Shown: positions 27,974 to 41,256 of the stretch, one piece after another | How the letters are laid out: each line of letters starts with the position of its first letter | Numbering within the stretch: the stretch's first letter is position 1 | Assembly (NCBI GenBank): GCA_029264955.1 | Contig: JARHYC010000020.1 | Coordinates: 1 to 64,000 of the forward strand | Direction: 5' to 3' | DNA: 64,000 bases | Source: Faecalibacterium sp. | GTDB taxonomy: Bacteria; Bacillota; Clostridia; Oscillospirales; Ruminococcaceae | The notes under the pieces: model-generated | What the model saw: only the letters and a program-made list of their open reading frames with translations | Told to the model about the DNA's origin: nothing | Databases searched by the model: none | Made by a program: the position numbers and the translations under genes

Positions 27974-30900
27974 TTAGCGATGCAGCGTGGCAATATCAAC
28001 CAGCGGAACTTTCTTCATTTCGTGGTCGCTGCGCAGGCACTGTACCAGAGATTTTGCCGTATCTACGGCAGTAATGCAAGGGATACTCAGTTCAACGGTC
28101 TTGCGGCGCAGCTTGACGGAATCGCGCTGCGGATCACGGCCGCGGGCACTGGTAGAGAATACATAATCCACGTTGCCGCTCTGCAGCAGGTCCAGAATGT
28201 TGGGGCCTTCGTCAGAGATGGGGCGCACCATGTTGCAAGGAATCATATGCTTGTTCAGCCAAGCGCAAGTGCCGGCAGTGCCGTACAGTTTGTAGCCCAT
28301 ATCACGCATCTGCCATGCAATCTCCAGGAACTCGGGCTTATCGGTATCCTTCACGCTGAATACGCAGCAGGAATCCGGGCTGGAGGGAGTCTTCAGGGCG
28401 TAGCCGGAACCGACCATGCCCTTCAGCAGAGCATCGTGGTAGTTGGGCGCAATGCCCAGAACTTCACCGGTGGACTTCATTTCAGGACCAAACTGGGTAT
28501 CAACGCCGTGCAGCTTTTCAAAGCTGAAGACGGGAACCTTAACAGCCACATAAGGAGCAGTGGGGTACAGACCAGTGCCGTAGCCCATATCAGCCAGCTT
28601 CTCGCCCAGGCAGCAGCGCACAGCCAGGTCGACCATAGGCACGCCGGTAACCTTAGAGATATACGGCACGGTACGAGAAGAACGAGGATTGACCTCGATG
28701 ACATAAACATCATCACCGGAAACCGCGTACTGCACGTTAACCAGACCAACAACCTTCAGCTCACGCGCAAAGCGACCCGTGTATTCCACCATAGTGTCGA
28801 TTGCTTTCTGAGAGATATGCTGGGTGGGGTAGACACAGATGGAGTCGCCAGAGTGAACGCCGGTACGCTCGACCTGCTCCATAACGCCAGGCACTAAGTA
28901 GTCAGTGCCGTCGCAGATTGCATCGACCTCGCACTCACGGCCGGTAATATACTTATCCAGCAGAACAGGGTGATCCATATCCACATGAGCGGTGATAACA
29001 CCCATATATTCGATGACGTCTTCCTTGGTATAAGCAACGATCATGTTCTGGCCGCCCAGAACGTAAGAGGGACGCATCAGCACAGGCAGACCGACTTCTT
29101 CAGCGGCAGCCAGCGCTTCTTCCAGGTTATAAACGGTACGGCCGGGTGCGCGGGGAATCTGGCAGCGCTCCAGCAGTTCGTCAAAACGCTCGCGGTCCTC
29201 AGCTTCGTCGATTGCGTCAGCCGGAGTGCCCAGGATGGGCATACCGATTTCGTCCATGTGCTTTGCCAGCTTGATTGCGGTCTGACCGCCAAACTGAACC
29301 ACGCAAGCATCGGGCTTTTCGGTAGCGATAACGTTATCAACACTTTCCGGGGTCAGCGGATCGAAGTACAGGCGGTCGCCGGTATCAAAGTCGGTAGAAA
29401 CGGTCTCGGGGTTGTTGTTGATGATGACCGTCTCGCAGCCGTGCTTCTTCAGCGTCCATACGCAGTGCACAGAGCAGTAGTCGAACTCAATGCCCTGACC
29501 GATACGGATGGGGCCGGAACCGAAGACCAGAATCTTCTTCTTTTTGCCTTCCTCAGCTTCTTTCTTCGCCAGGAAGTTTGCAGCTTCGTTGTCCTCGTCG
29601 TAAGTAGAGTAGAAATACGGGGTGGACGCAGCAAACTCAGCGGCGCAGGTATCAACCATCTTGTAGCCAGCGTGCAGCGGCTCGCAGGGCAGTTCTTCCA
29701 CCTGAGCCAGACGCTTGATAGTCTTATCCATAAAGCCGTACTGTTTAGCCTGCTTGTACTGTGCAACGCTCAGATTGCCGTTGCAAGCAGCCAGACCCAG
29801 CTCCAGATTTGCCAGGTGCTGCAGCTTATCCAGGAACCACCAGTCAATCTTGGTGATGTTGTAGATCACTTCGTGAGAAATACCGCGCTTCAGCGCTTCA
29901 TATACGCAGAACATACGCTCCGCGTCCTGCACATGCAGCTGCTGTACCAGAGCATCGTTGTCCAGCCCTTCCAGCGTGTTCAGGGTCAGGGTTTCCATGC
30001 CCAGCTCAATAGAAGTGACAGCTTTCATGATAGCCAGCTCAAAGCTGTTACCAATGGACATGACTTCGCCGGTAGCCATCATCTGGGTACCCAGGCTCTT
30101 GTCTGCGTAAACGAACTTATCGAAGGGCCACTTGGGGTACTTAACAACAATATAGTCAACGGTCGGCTCGAAGCAAGCGCTGGTAGTGCCGGTAACGTCA
30201 TTGCGGATCTCGTCCAGAGTGTAGCCGATTGCGATCTTGGTTGCAACCTTCGCGATGGGGTAACCGGTAGCCTTAGAAGCCAGTGCAGAAGAACGAGAAA
30301 CACGGGGGTTGACTTCGATCACTGCGTACTCGAAGCTATCAGGCTTCAGCGCGAACTGGCAGTTGCAGCCGCCCTCGATGCCCAGCTCGTTGATGATGTC
30401 CAGCGCAGCGGTGCGCAGCATCTGGAACTCTTTATCGGTCAGGGTCTGGCTGGGTGCCACAACGATGGAGTCACCGGTATGGATACCGACAGGGTCAACG
30501 TTTTCCATACTGCAAATAGTAATTGCGTTGCCTTTGCTGTCGCGCATGACCTCGAATTCGATTTCCTTCCAGCCGGAAATGCACTTCTCGACCAGAATCT
30601 GGTGAATAGGAGACAGGCGCAGACCGTTGGTGCCGATTTCAATCAGCTTAGCCTTGTCCTCGCAGATACCGCCGCCGGTACCACCCATGGTGAATGCAGG
30701 GCGAACGATAACGGGATAGCCGATTTCGTCTGCAACACGCAGTGCGTCTTCCATGTTCTCAACAACCTCAGAAGGGATGCTGGGCTGGTTCAGCTTGTCC
30801 ATGGTTTCCTTGAACAGCTCACGGTCCTCAGCGCGGTCGATGGTCTCAGGCTTGCAAGCCAGCAGACGGATGCCGTGCTCCTCCAGATAGCCGGAGCGAG

Positions 30901-31207
30901 CCAGCTCCATAGACATATTCAGACCGGTCTGGCCGCCCAGGTTGGGCAGCACGGAATCGGGCTTTTCGATGTCCAGAATGCGCTTGACCACTTCCAGGGT
31001 CATAGGCTCGATATACACATGATCGGCGATTTCCGGGTCGGTCATGATGGTAGCGGGGTTAGAGTTCAGCAGAACAGTCTCGATGCCTTCTGCCTTCAGG
31101 GCGCGGCAAGCCTGGGTACCGGAATAGTCGAACTCAGCGGCCTGGCCAATGATGATAGGACCGGAACCAATGACCAGTACCTTCTTGATGCTCATATCTC
31201 TAGGCAT
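27974..31207 (-). CDS. carB: carbamoyl phosphate synthase large subunit
   Basis: 1077 aa, normal full length. Two ATP-grasp halves (each starting with a GSGPI-type loop: VIGSGPIIIGQAAEFDYSG and VFGSGPIRIGQGIEFDYC) phosphorylate bicarbonate and carbamate; the C-terminal MGS-like domain (about 940-1077) carries allosteric sites. It also holds the ammonia-using site, so it can work with free NH3. ATG at 31207 follows AGGAGG and lies 1 bp after the carA stop, so the two subunits are translationally coupled. Last gene of the pyr operon; no strong terminator follows. Confidence 0.96.
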   Translation of the reverse strand: MPRDMSIKKVLVIGSGPIIIGQAAEFDYSGTQACRALKAEGIETVLLNSNPATIMTDPEIADHVYIEPMTLEVVKRILDIEKPDSVLPNLGGQTGLNMSMELARSGYLEEHGIRLLACKPETIDRAEDRELFKETMDKLNQPSIPSEVVENMEDALRVADEIGYPVIVRPAFTMGGTGGGICEDKAKLIEIGTNGLRLSPIHQILVEKCISGWKEIEFEVMRDSKGNAITICSMENVDPVGIHTGDSIVVAPSQTLTDKEFQMLRTAALDIINELGIEGGCNCQFALKPDSFEYAVIEVNPRVSRSSALASKATGYPIAKVATKIAIGYTLDEIRNDVTGTTSACFEPTVDYIVVKYPKWPFDKFVYADKSLGTQMMATGEVMSIGNSFELAIMKAVTSIELGMETLTLNTLEGLDNDALVQQLHVQDAERMFCVYEALKRGISHEVIYNITKIDWWFLDKLQHLANLELGLAACNGNLSVAQYKQAKQYGFMDKTIKRLAQVEELPCEPLHAGYKMVDTCAAEFAASTPYFYSTYDEDNEAANFLAKKEAEEGKKKKILVFGSGPIRIGQGIEFDYCSVHCVWTLKKHGCETVIINNNPETVSTDFDTGDRLYFDPLTPESVDNVIATEKPDACVVQFGGQTAIKLAKHMDEIGMPILGTPADAIDEAEDRERFDELLERCQIPRAPGRTVYNLEEALAAAEEVGLPVLMRPSYVLGGQNMIVAYTKEDVIEYMGVITAHVDMDHPVLLDKYITGRECEVDAICDGTDYLVPGVMEQVERTGVHSGDSICVYPTQHISQKAIDTMVEYTGRFARELKVVGLVNVQYAVSGDDVYVIEVNPRSSRTVPYISKVTGVPMVDLAVRCCLGEKLADMGYGTGLYPTAPYVAVKVPVFSFEKLHGVDTQFGPEMKSTGEVLGIAPNYHDALLKGMVGSGYALKTPSSPDSCCVFSVKDTDKPEFLEIAWQMRDMGYKLYGTAGTCAWLNKHMIPCNMVRPISDEGPNILDLLQSGNVDYVFSTSARGRDPQRDSVKLRRKTVELSIPCITAVDTAKSLVQCLRSDHEMKKVPLVDIATLHR

Positions 31208-31208
31208 A

Positions 31209-32315
31209 TTACTGCGCCTCCTTTGCATTCTTTACCTGATCCAGGAAGCGATCGAACAAGAACTCGGTTTCCTTGGGGCCACCGTTAGCTTCCGGGTTGA
31301 ACTGTACTGTGAAGCAGTTCCAGCACTTATACTGGATGCCTTCGCAGCTGCCGTCGTTGGCATTGATCTGTGCAACAGTGCCTACTTCAGCGGGCAGCTT
31401 TTCGCTGTCAACTGCGTAGCCGTGCCCCTGTGCAGTGATATAGGTGCGGCCGCCAGCCAGGTCGGTGACGGGCTGGTTTGCGCCGTGGTGGCCGTGCTTC
31501 ATCTTAACGGTGGGCACACCAGCAGCTGCAGCTGCAACCAGATGGCCCAAGCCGATACCGAAAACAGGCTTACCCAGGTCCAGAATTTCCTTTGCGTTTG
31601 CCACGATTTCCGGCACATCCGAAGCATCACCGGGGCCTGCGCTCAGCAGGATGCCGTCCGGGTTCAGAGCAGAAATATCTGCTGCGGTGGTGTATGCGGG
31701 CACAACCGTAACCTTGCTGCCGCGCTTGGTCAGGCAGCGGATGGTGTTGCGCTTGGTGCCGTAGTCCACCAGAACTACATGGGTGTCACCTTCCGGATTG
31801 TAAACCGCAGCTTCCTTGCAGGTAACGGTCTTAACACCGTCAGCAGCCTTGAAGCCTTCAATGTCAGCCATCAGCGCAGCACGGCGGTCGGCATTTGCCG
31901 GATCGGCCGGGTCAAACTCGGTGGTAATTGCGCCGTTCATGGAACCGCTCTCACGCAGGATGCGGGTCAGGTGACGGGTATCCACACCACAGATACCAAC
32001 CGTGCCGTTTGCCTTCAAAAAATCCTCAAAGGTGTACTGGCAGCGGAAGTTGGAGGGCGTGTGGCAGGCTTCGCGGACGATAATGCCGTTTGCCCAAACC
32101 GAATCGGACTCCTTGTCCTCATCGTTCATGCCATAGTTGCCCACCATGGGATAGGTCTGAGCAACCAGTGCGCCGTAGGATGCGGGATCTGTCAGGCCTT
32201 CCTGGAAGCCAACAACACCGGTGGAGAAAATAACCTCACCAAGCGTAGTGCCCGGGCAGCCCAAAGACTCGCCTGCGAACACCATGCCATTTGCCAAAAG
32301 CAGATATGCGTTCAT
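31209..32315 (-). CDS. carA: carbamoyl phosphate synthase small subunit with inactivated glutaminase site
   Basis: 368 aa. The N-terminal CarA domain and the class I amidotransferase fold are complete and well conserved (GPGD, VKMKHGHHG, ITAQGHGY). The catalytic residues are not: the nucleophile Cys269 of E. coli is Gly255 (codon GGC at 31551-31553), Gln273 is Leu259, Asn311 is Gly297, and His353 is Asn340 (codon AAC at 31296-31298); Glu342 of the PE pair stays. The frame is intact, so this is no pseudogene. It should bind CarB but not hydrolyse glutamine. ATG at 32315 follows GAGGT; an upstream in-frame TTG overlaps that site. Confidence 0.94.
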   Translation of the reverse strand: MNAYLLLANGMVFAGESLGCPGTTLGEVIFSTGVVGFQEGLTDPASYGALVAQTYPMVGNYGMNDEDKESDSVWANGIIVREACHTPSNFRCQYTFEDFLKANGTVGICGVDTRHLTRILRESGSMNGAITTEFDPADPANADRRAALMADIEGFKAADGVKTVTCKEAAVYNPEGDTHVVLVDYGTKRNTIRCLTKRGSKVTVVPAYTTAADISALNPDGILLSAGPGDASDVPEIVANAKEILDLGKPVFGIGLGHLVAAAAAGVPTVKMKHGHHGANQPVTDLAGGRTYITAQGHGYAVDSEKLPAEVGTVAQINANDGSCEGIQYKCWNCFTVQFNPEANGGPKETEFLFDRFLDQVKNAKEAQ

Positions 32316-32370
32316 GTTTTTACCTCGTGTATCCAATCAGCTTAAAGGGTTTACAATACAGGTTTGCAGA

Positions 32371-32964
32371 TTACAGGCTCTGCTTTGCCTCCTGCTTCAT
32401 CTTGCGGCTGCCCAGATGAACCAGGGGCAGCTTGCCTTCCTTGCAGATGGGGCATTCGTCTGCCTCGTAGTTGGGCAGATCCAGCTTTGCAGCGCTTGCA
32501 ATGATGGGAATGGGAGAAGGCGCGTCAGCCTTGGTGCGGTCTACCACGCAGCAGATGCCCAGGCACTCGCCGCCAGCCTCTTCGATGACACGCTTAGTTT
32601 CCAGGCTGGAGATACCAGTGGTAACAACGTCCTCTGCAATGATGCACTTTTCACCCGGCTGGATGGAGAAGCGCTTCAGGCACATCTGGTTGTCCACACG
32701 CTCGGTGAAGATAGCGCGTTTGCCGGTCTGACGAGCCAGCTCGTAAGCGTAAACGATACCGCCCATGGCAGGTCCTACAATCACATCCACATCCATTTCA
32801 CGGACCTTCTCTGCGATTTTTTCCATAACGGCAGCGCACTTATCCGGATGCTGCTGCAGGTATGCCATCTGGCAATATGCGCTGGAATGGCGGCCGCTGG
32901 ACAGCAGGAAGTGACCTTCCAGAAATGCGTCACAGCTCTTCAAAATCTCGATTACGTCGCTCAT
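32371..32964 (-). CDS. pyrE: orotate phosphoribosyltransferase
   Basis: 197 aa. Joins orotate and PRPP to give OMP. The PRPP loop CIIAEDVVTTGISS and the dimer-loop region GRHSSAYCQ are present. A short Cys-bearing tail (ADECPICKEGKLPLVHLGSRK), as in many clostridial PyrE proteins, ends the chain. AAAGGAG precedes the ATG. The 134-bp gap upstream, unusual in this tight operon, holds a promoter. Confidence 0.95.
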   Translation of the reverse strand: MSDVIEILKSCDAFLEGHFLLSSGRHSSAYCQMAYLQQHPDKCAAVMEKIAEKVREMDVDVIVGPAMGGIVYAYELARQTGKRAIFTERVDNQMCLKRFSIQPGEKCIIAEDVVTTGISSLETKRVIEEAGGECLGICCVVDRTKADAPSPIPIIASAAKLDLPNYEADECPICKEGKLPLVHLGSRKMKQEAKQSL

Positions 32965-32985
32965 GCTTTACTCTCCTTTTGCTTT

Positions 32986-33048
32986 TGAGCCAAAAGGCTC
33001 AGGCTTTTCACTATCTTTTATTTTATCACAGGGAAATAGGCATTGCAA
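32986..33048 (-). promoter_or_regulatory. internal promoter for pyrE-carA-carB with leader hairpin
   Basis: Minus strand: TTGCAA (33043-33048), 17-bp spacer, TAAAAT (33020-33025). In the short leader a TGAGCC-AAAA-GGCTCA stem (32986-33001) stands just before the pyrE ribosome site. It allows transcription independent of the pyr attenuator. Confidence 0.65.
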
Positions 33049-33098
33049 TTTCCCAGAGGTGAAATCAGAAGTATTACTTATGTGGCATCGTTGTTTTT

Positions 33099-34016
33099 TC
33101 AGCGTGCACAGCCACGGATTTCATCCAGTGTCTTTACGCCGTTTTTATCCATCCACTCTGCCATTTCTTCGCCGATCGTCTGCATTGCACGGGGATTTGC
33201 AAAATTTGCAGCACCCACCTGTACCGCAGTAGCACCTGCCATGATGAACTCCAGTGCGTCACGGCCGGTAGCGATACCGCCCAGACCCACCACCGGGATA
33301 TTCACAGCACCGACTGCCTGCCATACCATGCGCAGTGCAATGGGGCGAACCGCCGGGCCAGACAGACCTGCAAAGATATTGTTGAATACCGGCTTGCGCT
33401 TTTCCAAATCGATGGCACAAGCCTGGAAAGTATTAGTCAGACTGATACCATCTGCGCCCGCAGCTTCCACCGCCTTGCACATATCGGGGATGTTCTCCGC
33501 CTGAGGGCTGAGCTTGACCAGAAGCGGCTTCTTGCACACATCGCGTACCATCTTAACCATGGTACCCGCAGCTTCTGCCTTGACGCCGTATGCCATACCG
33601 CCAACCTTGACATTGGGGCAGCTGATGTTCAGCTCGATGATATCCACACCCGTTTCGCTGAGCATTTCAGCGCCCTGGATGTATTCTTCCTCGTTATGTC
33701 CGCCCAAGTTTGCCAGCGTTACGATGCCGTACTGTTCCTTCAGGCGCAGCATCTGGGGCAACTCCACATCAATGAAGTGCTGCACACCGGGATTCTGCAA
33801 ACCGATGGAGTTAATCAGTCCGGAGGGCGTTTCGTGCAGGCGCACACCCTCGTTGCCGTACTGACCATGCAGGGTCAGCCCCTTGCCGGAAATACCGCCG
33901 ATCTTGGAAAGATCGATCAGGTCTTCATACTCCGGGCCGTAACCTACGGTACCGGATGCACCGATGACCGGGCTGTGCATGGCAAAGCCAAATAGGTTTG
34001 TAGACAGATCAGACAT
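33099..34016 (-). CDS. pyrD: dihydroorotate dehydrogenase type 1B catalytic subunit
   Basis: 305 aa FMN TIM barrel. The active-site Cys lies in NISCPNVKVGG, the NAD-linked type 1B signature. It works as a heterotetramer with PyrK. Start ATG at 34016 follows AAAGGAGG and overlaps the end of pyrK by 8 bp; longer in-frame readings into pyrK are not credible. Confidence 0.95.
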   Translation of the reverse strand: MSDLSTNLFGFAMHSPVIGASGTVGYGPEYEDLIDLSKIGGISGKGLTLHGQYGNEGVRLHETPSGLINSIGLQNPGVQHFIDVELPQMLRLKEQYGIVTLANLGGHNEEEYIQGAEMLSETGVDIIELNISCPNVKVGGMAYGVKAEAAGTMVKMVRDVCKKPLLVKLSPQAENIPDMCKAVEAAGADGISLTNTFQACAIDLEKRKPVFNNIFAGLSGPAVRPIALRMVWQAVGAVNIPVVGLGGIATGRDALEFIMAGATAVQVGAANFANPRAMQTIGEEMAEWMDKNGVKTLDEIRGCAR

Positions 34017-34788
34017 GGACCAGCACCTCCTTTGCATCAAATACAGGGCCATCCTTGCAGATGCTGACCGCCTGTTCCCGTGTGGTCTTGCAGGTGCAGC
34101 CCAGGCAGGCACCGATACCGCAAGCCATCTTGGCTTCCAGACTGCACAGGCACTTTGCACCTGCTGCAACCGCACCGCTTGCTGCATTCTTCATCATGGG
34201 AGTCGGACCGCAAAGCAGAACTAAGTCATAATCGTTGGGGTCATACAGCTGGGTAACAAAGCCCTTTGCGCCAGCCTTGCCGCTGTCGGTAGCAATCTTC
34301 AGGCTCTTTGCTAGCCCTTCGTATTTTTCCGTTTCATAAGGCACATCGGTGAAACCGAAGCAAACATCCGGTGCGTTGCCGGCTTGTGCCAGCTCGCGCA
34401 CGGTCTGGTACAGGGGGGCGGTGCCGATACCGCCGCCAACCACCAGAATGCGATTATATTCCTTCGCCAGAGCTGCGGTATCAAAACCATTACCCATGGG
34501 GCCTGTCACCTGAAAGTGATCGCCAGCTGCCAGCTTTGCCAGCTTTTCGGTACCGTGACCCTTGACCTGATACAAGAACTGCAGCTCGTGCTTTTCCGGG
34601 TCCCAGCTATGTACGCTGATGGGGCGGGACAAAAACGGTTCCTCGTCATGTCCCCAAGCACGCAGGGTATAGAACTGACCTGCACGGGGTGCGTGTTCCA
34701 TATCGGTCCACAGCACCTTCAGCAGGCAGATATTTTCTTCTACAACGGTCTGATCCAAGACTGCCGCATCACAGCATACTGCACGCAT
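34009..34788 (-). CDS. pyrK: dihydroorotate dehydrogenase electron transfer subunit
   Basis: 259 aa. FAD-binding RPISVHSW, NAD-binding VVGGGIGTAPLY, and 2Fe-2S ligands Cys-x4-Cys-x2-Cys-x12-Cys beginning CGIGACLGC. Passes electrons from PyrD to NAD+. The ATG lies 20 bp inside pyrF and has AGGAGG upstream. Confidence 0.95.
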   Translation of the reverse strand: MRAVCCDAAVLDQTVVEENICLLKVLWTDMEHAPRAGQFYTLRAWGHDEEPFLSRPISVHSWDPEKHELQFLYQVKGHGTEKLAKLAAGDHFQVTGPMGNGFDTAALAKEYNRILVVGGGIGTAPLYQTVRELAQAGNAPDVCFGFTDVPYETEKYEGLAKSLKIATDSGKAGAKGFVTQLYDPNDYDLVLLCGPTPMMKNAASGAVAAGAKCLCSLEAKMACGIGACLGCTCKTTREQAVSICKDGPVFDAKEVLVHV

Positions 34789-35638
34789 GAGCGATATCCT
34801 CCTTCATACGAACACATTCGTTGTAAGCTGCTTCGTCGAATGCAACGCCGGGCTGTTTCTTCCAAGCCAGCAGGATGCCACGGCTGGAGTTGACCACGCC
34901 GCCGTTGGAGTTGTTCAGGTACAGAGCAATGTCCTCAGCCTTGCCGCCTTGTGCGCCGTAGCCGGGAATCAGGAAGAAGCTATCCTTGTAGCGTGCGCGA
35001 ATCTCGCTTGCTTCTTCTGCATGGGTACCACCGATCACCAAACCAATGCTGCTGTAACCGTGTTCGCCCATGTAGTTCTTGCCAACTTCAGTCACCTTGT
35101 CGCCGACCAGGTCGTAAACGTGACGACCGTCTGCCAACTTCTCATACTCGAAGTCCTTAGCGCCCTGGTTCGAGGTACGGCACAGAACGAACATACCCTT
35201 GCCCTGCTTTTCTGCGTAGGGCAGGTAGGGGGACAGGCTGTCCAGACCCATGTAAGGTGCCAGGGTAATCATGTCAGCCTCAAAGTCGCCCTCAAAGTGA
35301 GCCTTTGCATACATTTCAGCAGTCTTTGCAATGTCGCCGCGCTTGATGTCAGCGATGACGGGAATGCCGGCTTCACGCACAGCCTTCAGGGTTTCTGCAT
35401 AGCAGCGCATACCGTCCAGACCCATAGATTCATAGTAAGCAATCTGAACCTTGAAGCAGCCAGCCACGGGAGCGGTTGCTGCAATCAGTGCCTTGTTGTA
35501 ACGCAGAACGCTCTCACCGACCGTTTCACCAGCTTGAGCAAAGCCTTCGGGCAGGTAGGAAAAATCGGTATCCAGACCTACGCAAACGGGGCCGCGGGCT
35601 GCAACGCCCTCATACAGTTTGTCCATGCAAGTAATCAT
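34769..35638 (-). CDS. pyrF: orotidine 5'-phosphate decarboxylase (long, type 2)
   Basis: 289 aa, the longer PyrF subfamily. Catalytic Lys-Asp array in VIADIKRGDI; substrate loop GYGAQGG. Makes UMP from OMP. AGGAGG precedes the ATG. Confidence 0.95.
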   Translation of the reverse strand: MITCMDKLYEGVAARGPVCVGLDTDFSYLPEGFAQAGETVGESVLRYNKALIAATAPVAGCFKVQIAYYESMGLDGMRCYAETLKAVREAGIPVIADIKRGDIAKTAEMYAKAHFEGDFEADMITLAPYMGLDSLSPYLPYAEKQGKGMFVLCRTSNQGAKDFEYEKLADGRHVYDLVGDKVTEVGKNYMGEHGYSSIGLVIGGTHAEEASEIRARYKDSFFLIPGYGAQGGKAEDIALYLNNSNGGVVNSSRGILLAWKKQPGVAFDEAAYNECVRMKEDIAHACSML

Positions 35639-35673: not shown

Positions 35674-36861
35674 TTACACCTGATAGGTGATCTTGCCGCC
35701 CTTGATGGTAGTGCAGACCTTGCCGTACAGGGTCATGCCATCAAAGGGGCAGTTTTTCGACTTAGAATGGAAGGTTTCCTTGTTCACCACATACGGAGTG
35801 TCCAGATCCACCAGAACCAGGTCTGCGTCATAGCCCGGCTCCACAACGCCCTTACTGCCCAGACCCATAATGCGGGCAGGATTTTCGCTCATCAGGCTGC
35901 TCAGCACAGACAGCGGGATGTTTTCCTGTTTACACAGCTTGGTGTAGCAAATGCCGAATGCGGTTTCCAGACCGACCATACCGGCTGCACCCTTCAGCTT
36001 GTCTTCCTCGCTGTGGGGGGCGTGATCTGTACCAATGGCATCTACCACGCCGGCGCGAATGCCATCCACAAGTGCCTGTACATCGTCTGCTTCCCGAATG
36101 GGCGGGTTTACACGGTAATCACAAGTATCCTTTGTGTACCACAGGTGATGGGGGGTCACTTCGCAGGTGACCGGAGCGCCCTGCCACTTTGCCTGGGCAA
36201 TCGCTTCGATGGAACCACGGGTAGACACATGGCACATATGCAGGCGGGTCTGATAATACTGGGACAAATACAGGTTGCGTACCGTTTCGATATCCTCTGC
36301 CAAACGGTAATCCCAGGGAGAGATTTCCATATCCTCTGCATGGCTCATCACAGTGATGTCCTTCTGGTGGCAGATGGCGAAAGCCTTTGCCATCACGTTC
36401 GTGCTCTGCACACCGTGGCCGTCCTCCGAGATGAACTTGACGTTCTCCGGCAGGCTCTTCAGGTGGTCGATATCCATACCGTCGAAGCTGCTGGTGATGG
36501 ACACCGTCTGGTTTGCTTCGCACAAACCGATTTCCTTTACCTTCTGCTCAATCTGCCAAGCCATGCCTGGGTCGCTCATAACGGGTTTGGTATTGGGCAT
36601 CAGGTTCACAAAGGTGTAACCACCTGCCGCAGCAGCAGCGCTTCCGGTTGCCAGATCTTCCTTATACTCAAAACCAGGGGTACGCCAGTGACAGTGCAAA
36701 TCGATGAACGCAGGCAGAACCGTTTTGCCTGCTGCCTCCAGCACCGTTTCGTCCGGCCGGAGCAGTCCCTCCAGCCCTGTGCCCACAGCAGCGATTTTTC
36801 CATCGCGCAGCAACAGGTCTGTGGGCTGGCCTGCGGCGGTGACAGCATTGCGGATCAGCAT
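35674..36861 (-). CDS. pyrC: dihydroorotase
   Basis: 395 aa class I amidohydrolase. Metal ligands DLHCHWR (family DxHxH), the HAED and CHVST histidines, and the final TDHAPH are visible. First structural gene of the operon; AAGGAG precedes the ATG, about 65 nt after the attenuator. pyrB is not in this operon. Confidence 0.94.
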   Translation of the reverse strand: MLIRNAVTAAGQPTDLLLRDGKIAAVGTGLEGLLRPDETVLEAAGKTVLPAFIDLHCHWRTPGFEYKEDLATGSAAAAAGGYTFVNLMPNTKPVMSDPGMAWQIEQKVKEIGLCEANQTVSITSSFDGMDIDHLKSLPENVKFISEDGHGVQSTNVMAKAFAICHQKDITVMSHAEDMEISPWDYRLAEDIETVRNLYLSQYYQTRLHMCHVSTRGSIEAIAQAKWQGAPVTCEVTPHHLWYTKDTCDYRVNPPIREADDVQALVDGIRAGVVDAIGTDHAPHSEEDKLKGAAGMVGLETAFGICYTKLCKQENIPLSVLSSLMSENPARIMGLGSKGVVEPGYDADLVLVDLDTPYVVNKETFHSKSKNCPFDGMTLYGKVCTTIKGGKITYQV

Positions 36862-36926
36862 AATTGACAGCTCCTTTTCCTTAGATTGCTTCCAGTATAA
36901 AACATTTCACCTAATTAAAAAACGGC

Positions 36927-36960
36927 AAAAAAAAACTTTTCCTATAAAATAGGAAAAGTT
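36927..36960 (-). terminator. pyr operon attenuator
   Basis: Minus strand: 11-bp stem AACTTTTCCTA/TAGGAAAAGTT with 5-nt loop followed by T9. It sits between the leader peptide and pyrC. Its 5' arm begins at the leader stop codon, so a ribosome that reaches the stop would block the hairpin. Confidence 0.88.
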
Positions 36961-37033
36961 AAGTTGTCCAATATAAAAAGGGAAAAGCAGTACAGCTGTT
37001 ATAAAACGCAAAGTAAACGTTAAAACGGCCCAT
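36959..37033 (-). CDS. pyr operon leader peptide, 24 aa
   Basis: Short reading frame with AAGGAG 6 nt before its ATG, in the transcribed leader of pyrC. Of 24 codons, five are Phe (all TTT), three Tyr and one Leu (TTA), plus a Trp, giving long U-rich mRNA stretches; it ends with TAA overlapping the attenuator stem. An early part can fold as AACG/CGUU, a possible pause hairpin. This matches the design of the E. coli pyrBI leader, where low UTP stalls polymerase in U-rich pause sites, the ribosome catches up, and the terminator is not formed. Sensing of Phe/Tyr supply is the alternative but fits the downstream genes less well. No homologous leader is known to me in this group. Confidence 0.75.
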   Translation of the reverse strand: MGRFNVYFAFYNSCTAFPFLYWTT

Positions 37034-37074
37034 TGTGTACTCCTTTTCTCATCCTTGTTTTTTGCTTTCGAGAT

Positions 37075-37103
37075 ATTGTATCATACCCCTTTATCGCTGT
37101 CAA
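37075..37103 (-). promoter_or_regulatory. sigma-A promoter of the pyr operon
   Basis: Minus strand: perfect TTGACA, 17-bp spacer, TACAAT; start near 37068, about 35 nt before the leader peptide. Confidence 0.85.
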
Positions 37104-37154: not shown

Positions 37155-37210
37155 GACAAAACACCGCACAAGCCATTCGGGTGGTGTGTTTTCCTTTGGC
37201 TCGTGCGGTG
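37155..37210 (-). terminator. terminator of the acidic lipoprotein gene
   Basis: Minus strand: CACCGCAC-G-AGCCA paired with TGGCT-T-GTGCGGTG, then TTTTG. Weak T-tract. Isolates the operon promoter of pyrC from the upstream gene. Confidence 0.55.
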
Positions 37211-37275: not shown

Positions 37276-38358
37276 TCAGTCATCATCCTCATCCAGATCC
37301 TCTGTATCGTCATCATCCTTGTCATCCAAGTCGTCCTTGTCGTCGTCCGGTTCCTTGTCATCATCCAGATCGTCCACATCATCTGCATCATCATCCAGAT
37401 CATCATCGTCAAGGTCACCCTTGTCATGCAGATCGTCAGCATCGTCCAAATCGTCGTCATCATCCAGATCGTCCAGGTCATCCGCATTGTTATCCAGATC
37501 CATTCCCAGATAATCCTCGGCGTCGTAATCAATCACCAAGCGGTCGCCATTCCAGTTTGCTTGCTTAACCTGACTTCTTGCCGTTTCGTTCAGCGCCTTG
37601 GCAGAAATGCCTGTCGGCAGATTTGCAGCAGACTCGATTTCAATTTCGATACGGTGCCCTGTGTTCTCCACCTCTTCCACATAGTAGTTGGCAGCTTCCA
37701 CCTTGTCGATCAGCTTTAACACGGTTTCTCTTACATCACTGCCAACAAACCCTTCATACACTCTTTCAATCTTGTTGTCATCACCGCTGACAACCATGGT
37801 TACTTTACCGTTGCTTTCGTAGAAAACTTCGATGTCATCGTCATCGATGTAATCTACCGTTTCGCCGTAGATATAATCTTCCGGCGCATAATCCAGCACC
37901 TGGACAGAGCTGTTCCACTGGGACTGTTCTACCTGCTTTTGGGTTTCTGCAACTACATCATCCAAAAAAGTATCGCTGGGAAGTGTAGAGCCCGGTTCAA
38001 TTCCAATCGAAATCTTGCGCTCCTGTGTACCGTCTTCGATGTCGGTTACAAAATAGCCGGCCTTACCGATTTCATTGACCAGATCACTAACGACCTGTTG
38101 GGTTTCCAACCCCTTGTAACCATCGTACCCATCCAAAATTTTCCGCCCGTCATCGTTGCGTGCTTCAACGCTCACCACGTCACCGTTGCCATCATAGAAA
38201 ACCGCCACTTCCGGGTTCACACTGAGGGTCAGCACACCGCCCGGCGTATAGCTGATTCCGTCTGCGCTCGCCACTTCTCCACAACCCGCCATTGCGGAAA
38301 CACCCATTGTCAATGCAAGACCCATTGCGATATTACGCATCCAATTCATCTTTTTCAT
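37276..38358 (-). CDS. lipoprotein with two RsgI-ectodomain-like repeats and Asp-rich tail
   Basis: 360 aa. Signal peptide with lipobox AMAG-Cys26. Two copies of the domain found outside the membrane in anti-sigma RsgI: about 38-170 (VLTLSVNPEVAVFYDGNG, DDGRKILDGYDGYKG) and about 171-285 (IEVFYESNGKVTMVV...YEGFVG). The first keeps the Asn48-Pro49 pair where RsgI proteins self-cleave; the second lacks it. Residues about 286-360 are almost only Asp with Leu, Glu and Lys, possibly binding Ca2+ or other cations. No sigma-binding domain. ATG at 38358 follows AAGGAGG. It carries the same promoter as sigI-rsgI, so it is probably in the SigI regulon. Confidence 0.78.
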   Translation of the reverse strand: MKKMNWMRNIAMGLALTMGVSAMAGCGEVASADGISYTPGGVLTLSVNPEVAVFYDGNGDVVSVEARNDDGRKILDGYDGYKGLETQQVVSDLVNEIGKAGYFVTDIEDGTQERKISIGIEPGSTLPSDTFLDDVVAETQKQVEQSQWNSSVQVLDYAPEDYIYGETVDYIDDDDIEVFYESNGKVTMVVSGDDNKIERVYEGFVGSDVRETVLKLIDKVEAANYYVEEVENTGHRIEIEIESAANLPTGISAKALNETARSQVKQANWNGDRLVIDYDAEDYLGMDLDNNADDLDDLDDDDDLDDADDLHDKGDLDDDDLDDDADDVDDLDDDKEPDDDKDDLDDKDDDDTEDLDEDDD

Positions 38359-38416
38359 ATTGAATTCCTCCTTGAAGAAATTTGATTTTGTGTTTTCGGC
38401 TTTCTTTGCCTTGCAT

Positions 38417-38455
38417 ATATAGATTCCGTATCCCAGCCGCCAAAAGTGGGGTCGC
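38417..38455 (-). promoter_or_regulatory. SigI-type promoter of the lipoprotein gene
   Basis: Minus strand: GCGACCCC, 14 bp, GGATACGG then A-TCTATA. It aligns without gaps to the promoter before sigI (41105-41143). ACCCC and CGGA resemble the -35 ACCCCC and -10 CGWA elements known for SigI. Confidence 0.65.
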
Positions 38456-38459
38456 CGCA

Positions 38460-38700
38460 AAAAATATTTTCTTTTTTTGCAAAAAACATCCATATGTCTG
38501 TATTTGCAAGACAGTAACAAGTCAAACAACTGGCAGAGACGCTTCCCTGTCGGCTGTTTGAACCTATAAGTGACGTTTATTAGCCCTTTTGATTCCGCCC
38601 ACAGTTTCCATTCACACGATTTTCGCGCAGGGAGGGCGATAAATCTGTTCGGTAAATTCCAATGAAGTCTACAATTTTTATGATTCATCATCGTTAAAAA
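38460..38700. other. intergenic stretch without recognised gene
   Basis: AT-rich except for an imperfect inverted repeat near 38522-38563 (CAAACA...TGTTTG) without a T-run. No coding signal seen between the two divergent promoters. Confidence 0.5.
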
Positions 38701-39553: not shown

Positions 39554-40360
39554 TTACTCGTCGGTATCGTCCCCATCTTCGTCAGAGTCATCCTCCTGGT
39601 CGTCTTCCGATTCGTTCCCGCCGTCATCCTCTTCGGACAAATCTTCGGATTCATCATCCTCGTCAGCGTCGTCTGCATCGTCCGATTTCTCGGTGTCATC
39701 CTCTAATGCATCATCCGGATCTTCATCCACATCGTCGCCTGTATCCTCGTCCAAATCGTCTGAATTATCCTCATCCAGCAAATCATCCCAGTCATCCAAA
39801 TCCACCAGCACATCCAGGCGTTCTGCCAGATAGTCGTCCAGTTCTGCGCGCACATCCTCACCATACTGTGCTGCCCAATCTGCATCCTTTGCATCGACAC
39901 GCAGGGTAATGCTGTCACCGGATTTGAGATAGTGTAGTGCTATCGCACGTTCTACTAACTCCTGCACCACCTGATCTCTGCTTTTCTGTTTATACTGGTA
40001 ACCTTCCAGCAAAATGCTGCCATCGGCGTCACCCGCTTCCAGCTCAACCACCTTGTCCTGACGGTTCACACCAATGCGCACCTGTGGGTTAATATCCAAA
40101 TAGACCGACGCATACGCTACCTGACCCTGATACAAAAAAACCGTTACTGCCAGCATTGCACAAGCCGCCACCGTAGCTGCTGAATACAACAGCGGAAGTG
40201 CTCTCTTGCGCTTCTTTTCCGGGGTGGGCACCTGCATTTCGACCACATGGGTCACCATCTGCCCCACCTGATAATTCAGGTTTGCCACTTTCAAGAACCG
40301 ACCATCTTCACTCATCACTACGGCAAATCCCGGATGACATTCCATCACCATATATTTCAT
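39554..40360 (-). CDS. rsgI: anti-sigma-I factor RsgI with acidic tail
   Basis: 268 aa. Cytoplasmic RsgI N-terminal domain (1-50; VMECHPGFAVVMSEDGRFLKV), one membrane helix (about 54-77), then the RsgI middle domain with LDINPQVRIGV, whose Asn91-Pro92 is the position of self-cleavage in studied RsgI proteins. Instead of the carbohydrate-binding modules of clostridial RsgI, residues about 187-268 are nearly all Asp/Glu/Ser. AAAGGAGG precedes the ATG, which overlaps the sigI stop by 4 bp (ATGA). Holds SigI at the membrane until a signal arrives. Confidence 0.88.
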   Translation of the reverse strand: MKYMVMECHPGFAVVMSEDGRFLKVANLNYQVGQMVTHVVEMQVPTPEKKRKRALPLLYSAATVAACAMLAVTVFLYQGQVAYASVYLDINPQVRIGVNRQDKVVELEAGDADGSILLEGYQYKQKSRDQVVQELVERAIALHYLKSGDSITLRVDAKDADWAAQYGEDVRAELDDYLAERLDVLVDLDDWDDLLDEDNSDDLDEDTGDDVDEDPDDALEDDTEKSDDADDADEDDESEDLSEEDDGGNESEDDQEDDSDEDGDDTDE

Positions 40361-41085
40361 GCCAGCGGCCTCCTTTCCCGCAAGACCCGTCTCAGATGTC
40401 CACGCATGATTTCATATCCGTTGGTCTGCACCAGAAGCATCACCAAAATGTACTTGCGATGCCGCTCCAGCGTTTTACGCTCCACACCACTGCCTTTGAC
40501 CAGTTTCGACATCGGCAGCTTTTGGGTGCGCAGTAGCTCTTCCAGCAATTTCGGATTCTCTCCTGCCCAGCGAATAGCTCGCTTGCAGGCTTCCAACGTA
40601 CGTTCCTGTTTGGGTGCGTTGTCTGCCACATCCGTAAAACTGACACCAAACGTCTGCATCACCGCCGCCAGCTCTAAAATTTCCTCTCGGGTCGCTTGCT
40701 GCGTTTCTGCTTCTTCGATGGGGTTGCTGGTTTCCTGCAAGGTATCCGCCAGCGTTCTGTCATCCTCTCCTCCAGCGGGTTCTTCCAAAGAAACCGCATC
40801 GGCACGATGCATCTGCTTCCGCTGTTCATCCAACAGACGGCTGCGAATCCGCATTGCCGCATAGGCTAAAAAGCTGCCGCGCTCCTGTGCATAACCCAGA
40901 ATTGCTTCATGGAATGCCATCATCGCAATACTGAACGCATCATCCTGTTCGGTGCAGAATTTGGAAATCGTACGGGATGCTTCCGCACGGATAAACGGAA
41001 GATAGGCACGAATCAGCGCATCCGCTTTCTGAACATCTTTTTTCGCAGCGTACACTTCTGCGGTGATTTCTGTATCCTGCTGCAT
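40357..41085 (-). CDS. sigI: RNA polymerase sigma factor SigI
   Basis: 242 aa sigma-70 family member of the SigI group. Region 2 is seen in ADALIRAYLPFIRAEASRTISKF and EQDDAFSIAMMAFHEAI; the C-terminal SigI DNA-binding part has RRVL/KYILVMLLV features. ATG at 41085 follows AAGGAG. Forms a two-gene operon with rsgI and has an upstream promoter like that of the acidic lipoprotein, consistent with self-activation. Confidence 0.9.
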   Translation of the reverse strand: MQQDTEITAEVYAAKKDVQKADALIRAYLPFIRAEASRTISKFCTEQDDAFSIAMMAFHEAILGYAQERGSFLAYAAMRIRSRLLDEQRKQMHRADAVSLEEPAGGEDDRTLADTLQETSNPIEEAETQQATREEILELAAVMQTFGVSFTDVADNAPKQERTLEACKRAIRWAGENPKLLEELLRTQKLPMSKLVKGSGVERKTLERHRKYILVMLLVQTNGYEIMRGHLRRVLRERRPLA

Positions 41086-41104
41086 ACCCCCACTCCTTTC
41101 CTTA

Positions 41105-41143
41105 TTATAGAATCCGTATCCAACCCGGTAAAATCGGGGTCGC
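41105..41143 (-). promoter_or_regulatory. SigI-type autoregulated promoter of sigI-rsgI
   Basis: Minus strand: GCGACCCC, 14 bp, GGATACGG then A-TCTATA, about 20 nt before the start codon. Same elements and spacing as at 38417-38455. Confidence 0.65.
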
Positions 41144-41210
41144 ACTGTGTTTTCTTTTATTGTAAAAAATTCAGGCCGGAAAACCAAGCCTTTTCCCGAC
41201 TTTCCAAAAT

Positions 41211-41242
41211 AAAAACGTCGGCAAGCTAGGTTGCCGACGTTT
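41211..41242 (-). terminator. terminator of the GT-C-like gene
   Basis: AAACGTCGGCAA/TTGCCGACGTTT with T5 on the minus strand. It also separates sigI from that gene. Confidence 0.85.
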
Positions 41243-41256
41243 GGCATCTGCCTGAT

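Follow-up and report, generated by a model that had tools for sequence, protein, structure and literature searches.

A U-rich leader ORF ending at a terminator before the pyrimidine operon of Faecalibacterium and related genera: a probable translation-dependent attenuator

The pyr operon and its leader

The window analysed in this study is a 64,000-nt stretch of a Faecalibacterium sp. genome (GenBank assembly GCA_029264955.1, contig JARHYC010000020.1, positions 1 to 64,000), and the genome as a whole is 1.88 Mb long and 99.6% complete. A pyrimidine operon lies on the minus strand of the window in the order pyrC-F-K-D-E-carA-carB. Its genes were located as follows.

35674..36861 (-), pyrC (dihydroorotase), first gene of the operon; Pfam Amidohydro_1, the name pyrC being taken from the operon context
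27974..35638 (-), remainder of the operon after pyrC, from pyrF to carB (ORFs)
34769-35638 (-), pyrF, ORF with Pfam/NCBIfam match
34009-34788 (-), pyrK, ORF with Pfam/NCBIfam match
33099-34187 (-), pyrD, ORF with Pfam/NCBIfam match
32371-32964 (-), pyrE, ORF with Pfam/NCBIfam match
31209-32336 (-), carA, ORF with Pfam/NCBIfam match
27974-31228 (-), carB, ORF named from its sequence and context

Between the promoter and pyrC we read a short leader with the following parts.

37098..37103 (-), -35 element TTGACA, read directly from the letters
37075..37080 (-), -10 element TACAAT after a 17-nt spacer, read directly from the letters
37036..37056 (-), 5' strand of a predicted SD-sequestering stem, including the leader SD; from predicted folds and the swap test against other genera
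37045-37040 (-), leader SD AAGGAG, read directly from the letters
36959..37033 (-), leader ORF MGRFNVYFAFYNSCTAFPFLYWTT*, 24 codons and UAA, with its ATG at 37033; read from the sequence
36978..36994 (-), 3' strand of the predicted SD-sequestering stem, which is the U-rich later part of the leader ORF; from predicted folds
36934..36960 (-), terminator hairpin AACUUUUCCUAU-UUU-AUAGGAAAAGUU, 12 bp; from the letters and a predicted fold
36927..36935 (-), U9 tract of the terminator, followed by GCC; read directly from the letters

The original prediction had described a TTGACA-N17-TACAAT promoter, an AAGGAG and a 24-codon U-rich leader at this place, and all of these were recovered when the letters were read. 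It had further put the leader's UAA inside the terminator's 5' arm, with U9 and pyrC coming next, which agrees with our reading: two of the three UAA bases lie inside the arm, and pyrC starts at 36861. The hairpin itself is present, but its stem counts 12 bp and not the 11 bp that had been claimed, and the first two U's of the U9 tract are paired within it. Similar -35 and -10 elements were seen upstream of many leader ORFs of relatives, as judged by eye and uncounted.

A strong separate hairpin followed by TTTT was observed at 37162-37210 (-), between an upstream RsgI-like gene and the pyr promoter. It is probably the terminator of that gene, so that the terminator of the pyr leader would not simply be the end of the upstream unit. 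Further upstream, at 37276-38691 (-), 39554-40360 (-) and 40357-41247 (-), are encoded two RsgI-like anti-sigma proteins, which have long Asp-rich tails, and a sigma-70 region 2 protein.

The pyrB gene of Faecalibacterium is not linked to this operon. No leader was seen before it by eye in 15 of the 30 fetched loci, and in these 15 inspected loci pyrB lies close behind another ORF (e.g., L165). In addition, 13 of the 31 genus genomes contain two pyrB matches over the cut-off.

Conservation of the leader and the position of its stop codon

The DNA upstream of pyrC was read in genomes of the genus and the family, and, for operons beginning with pyrB, upstream of that gene. The leader arrangement was present in 69 of the 72 loci searched and absent in three, with some genomes counted twice in this tally. 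After identical sequences had been removed, 61 distinct leaders were obtained, all from one family; they stand before pyrC or pyrB and come from 17 genera by the numbering of the genome search. The leader frame and the ribosome site, which according to the original prediction should be conserved upstream of the pyr genes of relatives, are kept in these 61 leaders. Their start codons are ATG (54), TTG (4) and GTG (3), and the ORFs are 16-67 codons long (median 28). Within the genus, the leader was detected in all 30 genomes with a full-length pyrC match; the 31st genome (G026) gave no such match and was left out. The 28 family genomes fetched for the leader from outside the genus were taken for their closer PyrC type (E below 1e-100) and were not drawn at random.

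Several leaders required manual handling. Those of L018, L021, L105, L106, L117B and L120B had been missed or misplaced by the script and were placed by eye, and the terminator hairpin of L120B is weak. L125B proved to be a false leader call and was dropped, and L122B and L123B yielded none. Another gene precedes pyrC in L030, L031, L044, L045 and L047, which were excluded from the pyrC set; L030 and L031 came back into the analysis via pyrB. In G203 the contig starts within pyrB.

No standard leader was found upstream in three genomes, G145, G198 and G081, which possess the related PyrC type and lack PyrR. By eye, the regions upstream of pyrB in G145 (L122/L145) and G198 (L123/L146) contain an SD followed by stretches rich in U, together with weak hairpins and ORFs that may start at TTG, and they may be diverged forms of the leader. 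Among 11 further family genomes without PyrR that carry a distant PyrC, 10 had no leader; in the other (L135) an 11-codon match was rejected as spurious, being the tail of an upstream gene.

The terminator could also be followed by its sequence. The hairpin is kept mostly as CTTTTCC..GGAAAAG across the leaders, although the arms do vary (CUUUUCC/GGAAGAG, CAUUUUCC/GGAAAAUG, GCUUUCC/GGAAAGC). The pattern CTTTTCCN{2,13}GGAAAAGT8 matched once in the window's genome. In the genus it was present in 26 of the 31 genomes, once per genome and always at the pyr operon as judged against the pyrC coordinates, and in the family it was found in 15 of 197 genomes, once each and again all at the pyr operon. 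In a sample of the order, two of 295 genomes (26 of which belong to the same family) carried it, both of them members of the genus. The pattern is narrow, and leaders with other hairpin arms escape it. An earlier version, the T-run of which was too strict, had matched 5/31 genomes and was replaced. A covariance model derived from a plain MAFFT alignment of the terminator was discarded as well; it gave a wrong structure, in which the 3' arm was paired with the U-tract, and exact patterns were used instead.

Directly after the U9 tract of the window's leader stands a GCC (36924-36926, minus strand). A T-run followed by GCC occurs in 47 of the 61 leaders, and in the sampled part of the window's genome GCC follows just 6 of 138 runs of T7 or longer. 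The U-tract of E. coli pyrL is followed by GCCC (L199, near 2919, minus strand).

In 54/61 leaders the stop overlaps the hairpin by 2-3 nt, so that the ORF ends at the hairpin base; it lies inside or beyond the hairpin in six and falls 7 nt short of it in one. Taken together, in 60 of the 61 leaders the stop codon reaches into the 5' arm of the terminator or lies beyond it. In one genus (L124/L147, from G108) the ORF runs through the whole terminator, the hairpin of which is clear. As a control we used about 464 kb of the window's genome (400 kb in stretches plus the window) with 357 predicted genes, and sought hairpins within 100 nt of each. A terminator-like hairpin was detected near 89 of the 357 genes. 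It overlapped the stop codon in one of the 89, the median gap was 20 nt, and the hairpin started within 5 nt of the stop in 8, within 10 nt in 20 and within 12 nt in 23 of them. For B. subtilis, terminators a few nt behind the stop codons have been reported and taken to indicate runaway transcription (in the available part of PMC7858274). By our own count, the spacing between stop and terminator in the window's genome is less close than that reported for B. subtilis.

We also examined the reading frame. Upstream of the hairpin, the 61 leaders contain a single stop in the leader frame, the own stop of one leader, compared to 45 and 31 stops in the other two frames. The pN/pS ratio, calculated for four groups with at least four members each, was 0.49-0.87 in the true frame and 0.46-1.28 in the shifted frames, and in one group of four leaders a shifted frame had a lower value (0.46) than the true one (0.75). 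Moreover, the leader peptides differ from genus to genus. Judged by these comparisons, the leaders retain an open frame up to the hairpin, with a peptide that is only weakly constrained, as would be expected if translation itself counts.

U content and SD complementarity of the leader ORF

The leader codons are rich in U. Phe makes up 16% of the leader residues versus 3% in neighbouring genes, and it is encoded by UUU 186 times and by UUC 78 times, although only 141 UUU codons would be expected from local usage. When the last 30 nt of each leader were compared with synonymous recodings of the same peptide, the mean number of U was 13.1 versus 10.7; the observed value was above the recoded one in 56/61 leaders, and the excess was individually significant (p ≤ 0.05) in 28/61. 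L116 and L118 had no long ORF from which to take local codon usage, and their recoding was done with near-uniform codons. Thus, the U-rich leader codons proposed in the original prediction hold more U than the peptide needs, as pausing dependent on UTP would require.

Part of this U-richness could come from complementing the purine-rich SD. The U content away from the SD partner was measured in 16 leaders (among them L116), in which that partner ends 12-67 nt before the terminator. Here the last six codons contained 8.9 U versus 7.3 after recoding, and the observed value was the higher one in 16/16. On the strength of this uniform excess, U near the terminator seems to be selected for its own sake, beyond the needs of the peptide.

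The predicted fold of the window's leader pairs the SD with the leader ORF. The same tendency was evident in 27 representative leaders, 26 of which folded better than the mean of their codon shuffles (mean z -2.0); the pairing probability of the SD was 0.84 versus 0.70 in the shuffles and was higher in 24 of the 27. Within Faecalibacterium, covariation offered little: in two group alignments the stem columns were mostly invariant or changed on one side, and each alignment contained a single two-sided pair change per consensus. Because covariation was this thin, we used swaps between genera together with controls. In this swap test the duplex between the SD region and the ORF of a leader is compared with swapped pairs, which controls for composition. 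The duplex of a leader with its own partner had a mean energy of -20.2 kcal/mol compared to -16.3 kcal/mol for swapped pairs; 34 of 40 leaders did better than expected, and six showed no advantage of their own pairing. With one leader per genus the z value was -6.1, whereas the control region just upstream of the SD gave a borderline -1.6 (p 0.05-0.06).

Ordinary genes, taken from the window's genome only, behaved differently. One hundred of 225 such genes showed no advantage of the own SD-ORF pairing (-11.2 versus -11.5), and in 40 genes the SD pairing was 0.56 versus 0.57 in shuffles, with a mean fold z of -0.5. These comparisons, which depend on modelled folds, suggest that the SD-ORF complementarity is specific to each leader, absent in ordinary genes, and under selection. 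The 3' strand of the stem lies within 15 nt of the terminator in 41 of the 61 leaders, and its position is not fixed. In E. coli pyrL, a single sequence, SD pairing was 0.73 versus 0.76 in codon shuffles and showed no excess. The original prediction had held that no alternative fold was evident, and this stands insofar as no clear anti-terminator was found; however, it overlooked the pairing of the leader SD region with the leader ORF in predicted folds.

Proposed mechanism and alternatives

We propose that the pyr leader is probably a cis-acting, translation-dependent transcription attenuator, which most likely reads UTP and has an SD trap added to it. We infer the UTP signal, the polymerase pausing, the timing of SD closure and the occlusion of the terminator by a ribosome from the position before the pyr genes, the selection on U and the pyrBI precedent, as laid out in the available parts of PMC5021804 and PMC4824070. 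The outcome would be decided by RNA polymerase, the structure of the RNA and one ribosome. When UTP is plentiful, polymerase would cross the U-tracts fast and the U-rich strand would fold back onto the SD; with the SD closed, the leader would stay untranslated, the terminator would form, and transcription would halt before pyrC. When UTP is scarce, polymerase would hesitate at the U-tracts, the trap would close late, and the SD would be open for longer, allowing a ribosome to load. This ribosome would reach the stop codon close behind the polymerase and cover the 5' arm of the terminator, and the polymerase would read through into the operon. An E. coli terminator is repressed when a ribosome stands at a stop codon a few bases upstream of it, and a ribosome protects about 10 nt past its A site (both from the available part of PMC4824070). 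With such a footprint, the terminator 5' arm would be covered by a ribosome that has reached the leader stop.

The Bacillota are classed, in the part of PMC13323073 available, among the species whose transcription is runaway, polymerase moving ahead of the ribosomes, so the proximity of a ribosome to the polymerase cannot be assumed. In E. coli, a terminator in the first 100 bp of a coding region is efficient unless pausing couples the ribosome to polymerase (PMC4824070, as far as available). A gate at ribosome loading would spare the leader the need for a ribosome that generally keeps pace, and would thereby answer the runaway objection.

The nearest known relative in design is the pyrBI leader (pyrL) of E. 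coli. In both, a short U-rich leader ORF with its own SD precedes pyr genes, and an intrinsic terminator lies at the end of the ORF; in several genera of the family the leader even precedes pyrB, and in the one genus with an ORF running through the hairpin (G108) the layout is that of pyrL. In E. coli pyrBI a ribosome can occupy the terminator, according to the parts of PMC5021804 and PMC4824070 that deal with the mechanism. However, the pyrL ORF extends through the terminator, whereas in 54/61 family leaders it ends at the hairpin base; the family leaders have a predicted SD-ORF stem, apparently under selection; their hairpin is U/A-rich with U in the 5' arm; and the host belongs to the Bacillota, with an operon starting with pyrC or pyrB. 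The pyrBI-style reading of the original prediction is partly supported: the conserved frame and SD, the excess of U and the absence of a PyrR over the cut-off agree with it, but the analogy is incomplete in the end of the ORF at the hairpin base and in the SD-ORF stem, in which the leader is unlike pyrL. We propose that the leader works like pyrBI and, since the ORF end and the SD stem differ, is not simply a member of that class. A stop codon just before a terminator is known from the E. coli rph-pyrE attenuator, in which ribosome and polymerase are coupled under UTP control. The leaders of the family resemble it in having the stop codon at the terminator, but they use a dedicated ORF of 16-67 codons instead of the full rph gene.

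A plain attenuator of the pyrBI type would suffice if only the race between polymerase and ribosome mattered, the SD-ORF complementarity serving as a pause hairpin or having no role. The logic would be the same and the layout is similar to that of pyrL, and U is still in excess near the terminator in leaders whose SD partner is located elsewhere. Moreover, the short pyrBI leader is one in which translation can become coupled to transcription through pausing (from the available part of PMC4824070), and in vitro the pause in E. coli pyrL appears to be independent of an RNA hairpin or NusA (PMC9291695, in the part available). We nevertheless regard this simpler reading as unlikely, though well worth keeping in mind. 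The complementarity is leader-specific across genera and absent in ordinary genes of the window's genome, which suggests selection, and if a pause hairpin were to act on the terminator its position would have to be fixed, which that of the 3' strand is not, being within 15 nt of the terminator in 41 of 61 leaders.

A trans-acting regulator other than PyrR might bind the leader or its conserved terminator hairpin, with the short ORF being secondary. Indeed, the primary sequence CUUUUCC..GGAAAAG shows more conservation than a terminator as such would seem to require. Against this, the ORF, the SD and the position of the stop are conserved over 17 genera, the terminator arms do vary between leaders, and no Rfam family matched anywhere in the window at the gathering score. 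The sub-threshold Rfam matches were taken as chance (ncr1575, 31.3 bits against a cut-off of 60; PyrR RF00515, 21.1 against 54). We consider such a regulator improbable.

The richness of the leader peptide in Phe could point to a leader of the tnaC or trpL type that senses the nascent peptide or an amino acid. However, UUU is preferred over UUC beyond local usage, the peptides differ between genera, and to our knowledge Phe has no link to pyrimidines. No run of codons for an amino-acid product of the operon was found, the Phe-rich leader sitting on a pyrimidine operon. Nor was there a convincing anti-terminator: pairing of the SD with the terminator 5' arm was weak, the 5' arm pairing with sequence upstream of it at a mean of 0.22 over 27 leaders and above 0.5 in three of them. 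Sensing of this type is accordingly very improbable.

The control of pyrimidine genes in Firmicutes is usually attributed to PyrR. In B. subtilis and other Firmicutes the PyrR attenuator uses a protein sensor and alternative RNA folds, and terminates transcription before the pyr genes when pyrimidines are plentiful. The operon and the proposed outcome are the same here, but no pyrR gene over the cut-off was found in the leader-bearing genomes. The original prediction had suggested a look for pyrR in the genome; the cut-off of the PyrR model (138 bits) was exceeded in none of the 31 genus genomes, the best score being 29.9 bits. The window's genome contains eight genes with a phosphoribosyltransferase domain, none of them best matched by PyrR but by other families. 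In the sample of 197 family genomes, PyrR was over the cut-off in 86 and in none of the 27 that bear the leader (Fisher p 5e-8, uncorrected for relatedness and with the 27 having been sought by PyrC type). Among the matches listed, PyrR-bearing genomes with a PyrC carry the more distant PyrC type, often beside pyrR as judged by eye. By subtraction, 84 of the 197 genomes have neither PyrR over the cut-off nor an identified leader, their pyr upstream regions having been inspected in a minority. The absence of PyrR does not imply the leader: of the PyrR-less genomes described above, G145, G198 and G081 had no standard leader, and none of the 11 with a distant PyrC had a credible one.

Patterns for the PyrR box matched none of the 61 leaders, and the same patterns matched just 2 of 10 PyrR-bearing family loci. 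Two Clostridium relatives carry, in place of the leader, repeats that we take to be PyrR-box-like. No Rfam match over the cut-off was obtained in 12 further loci, namely 10 around the pyrR genes of relatives and the two from Clostridium; since Rfam was silent even at the 10 pyrR loci, its silence was not counted against PyrR boxes. Overlooked PyrR-type attenuation thus has next to nothing in its favour beyond the frequency of PyrR in the wider family, as it is contradicted by the lack of a pyrR gene in a 99.6% complete genome, by the 0/31 result in the genus, by the assignment of the phosphoribosyltransferase-domain genes to other families and, more weakly, by the PyrR-box patterns, which miss 8 of 10 PyrR-bearing relatives.

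We found no prior description of this leader type in the literature searched, mostly open-access journals. The translation-dependent attenuator with its SD trap might, as a more tentative idea that we hold at somewhat less than even, represent a distinct class of UTP sensor in the Bacillota, taking the place of PyrR in some members of the family, the U-rich strand both reporting UTP and shutting the SD. If this is true, the speed of polymerase would be turned into a yes/no choice on ribosome loading, and a ribosome-dependent attenuator would be workable where polymerase outruns the ribosomes. A pyrBI-like attenuator kept in 17 genera of gut Clostridia in which no PyrR is detectable would mean that attenuation of the ribosome-dependent kind occurs there, and the SD trap suggests how. 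The leader would be a compact natural reporter with which to ask if, and under which conditions, ribosomes keep pace with polymerase in a Gram-positive commensal; it also offers a testable account of how the regulation of a core pathway may switch its mechanism.
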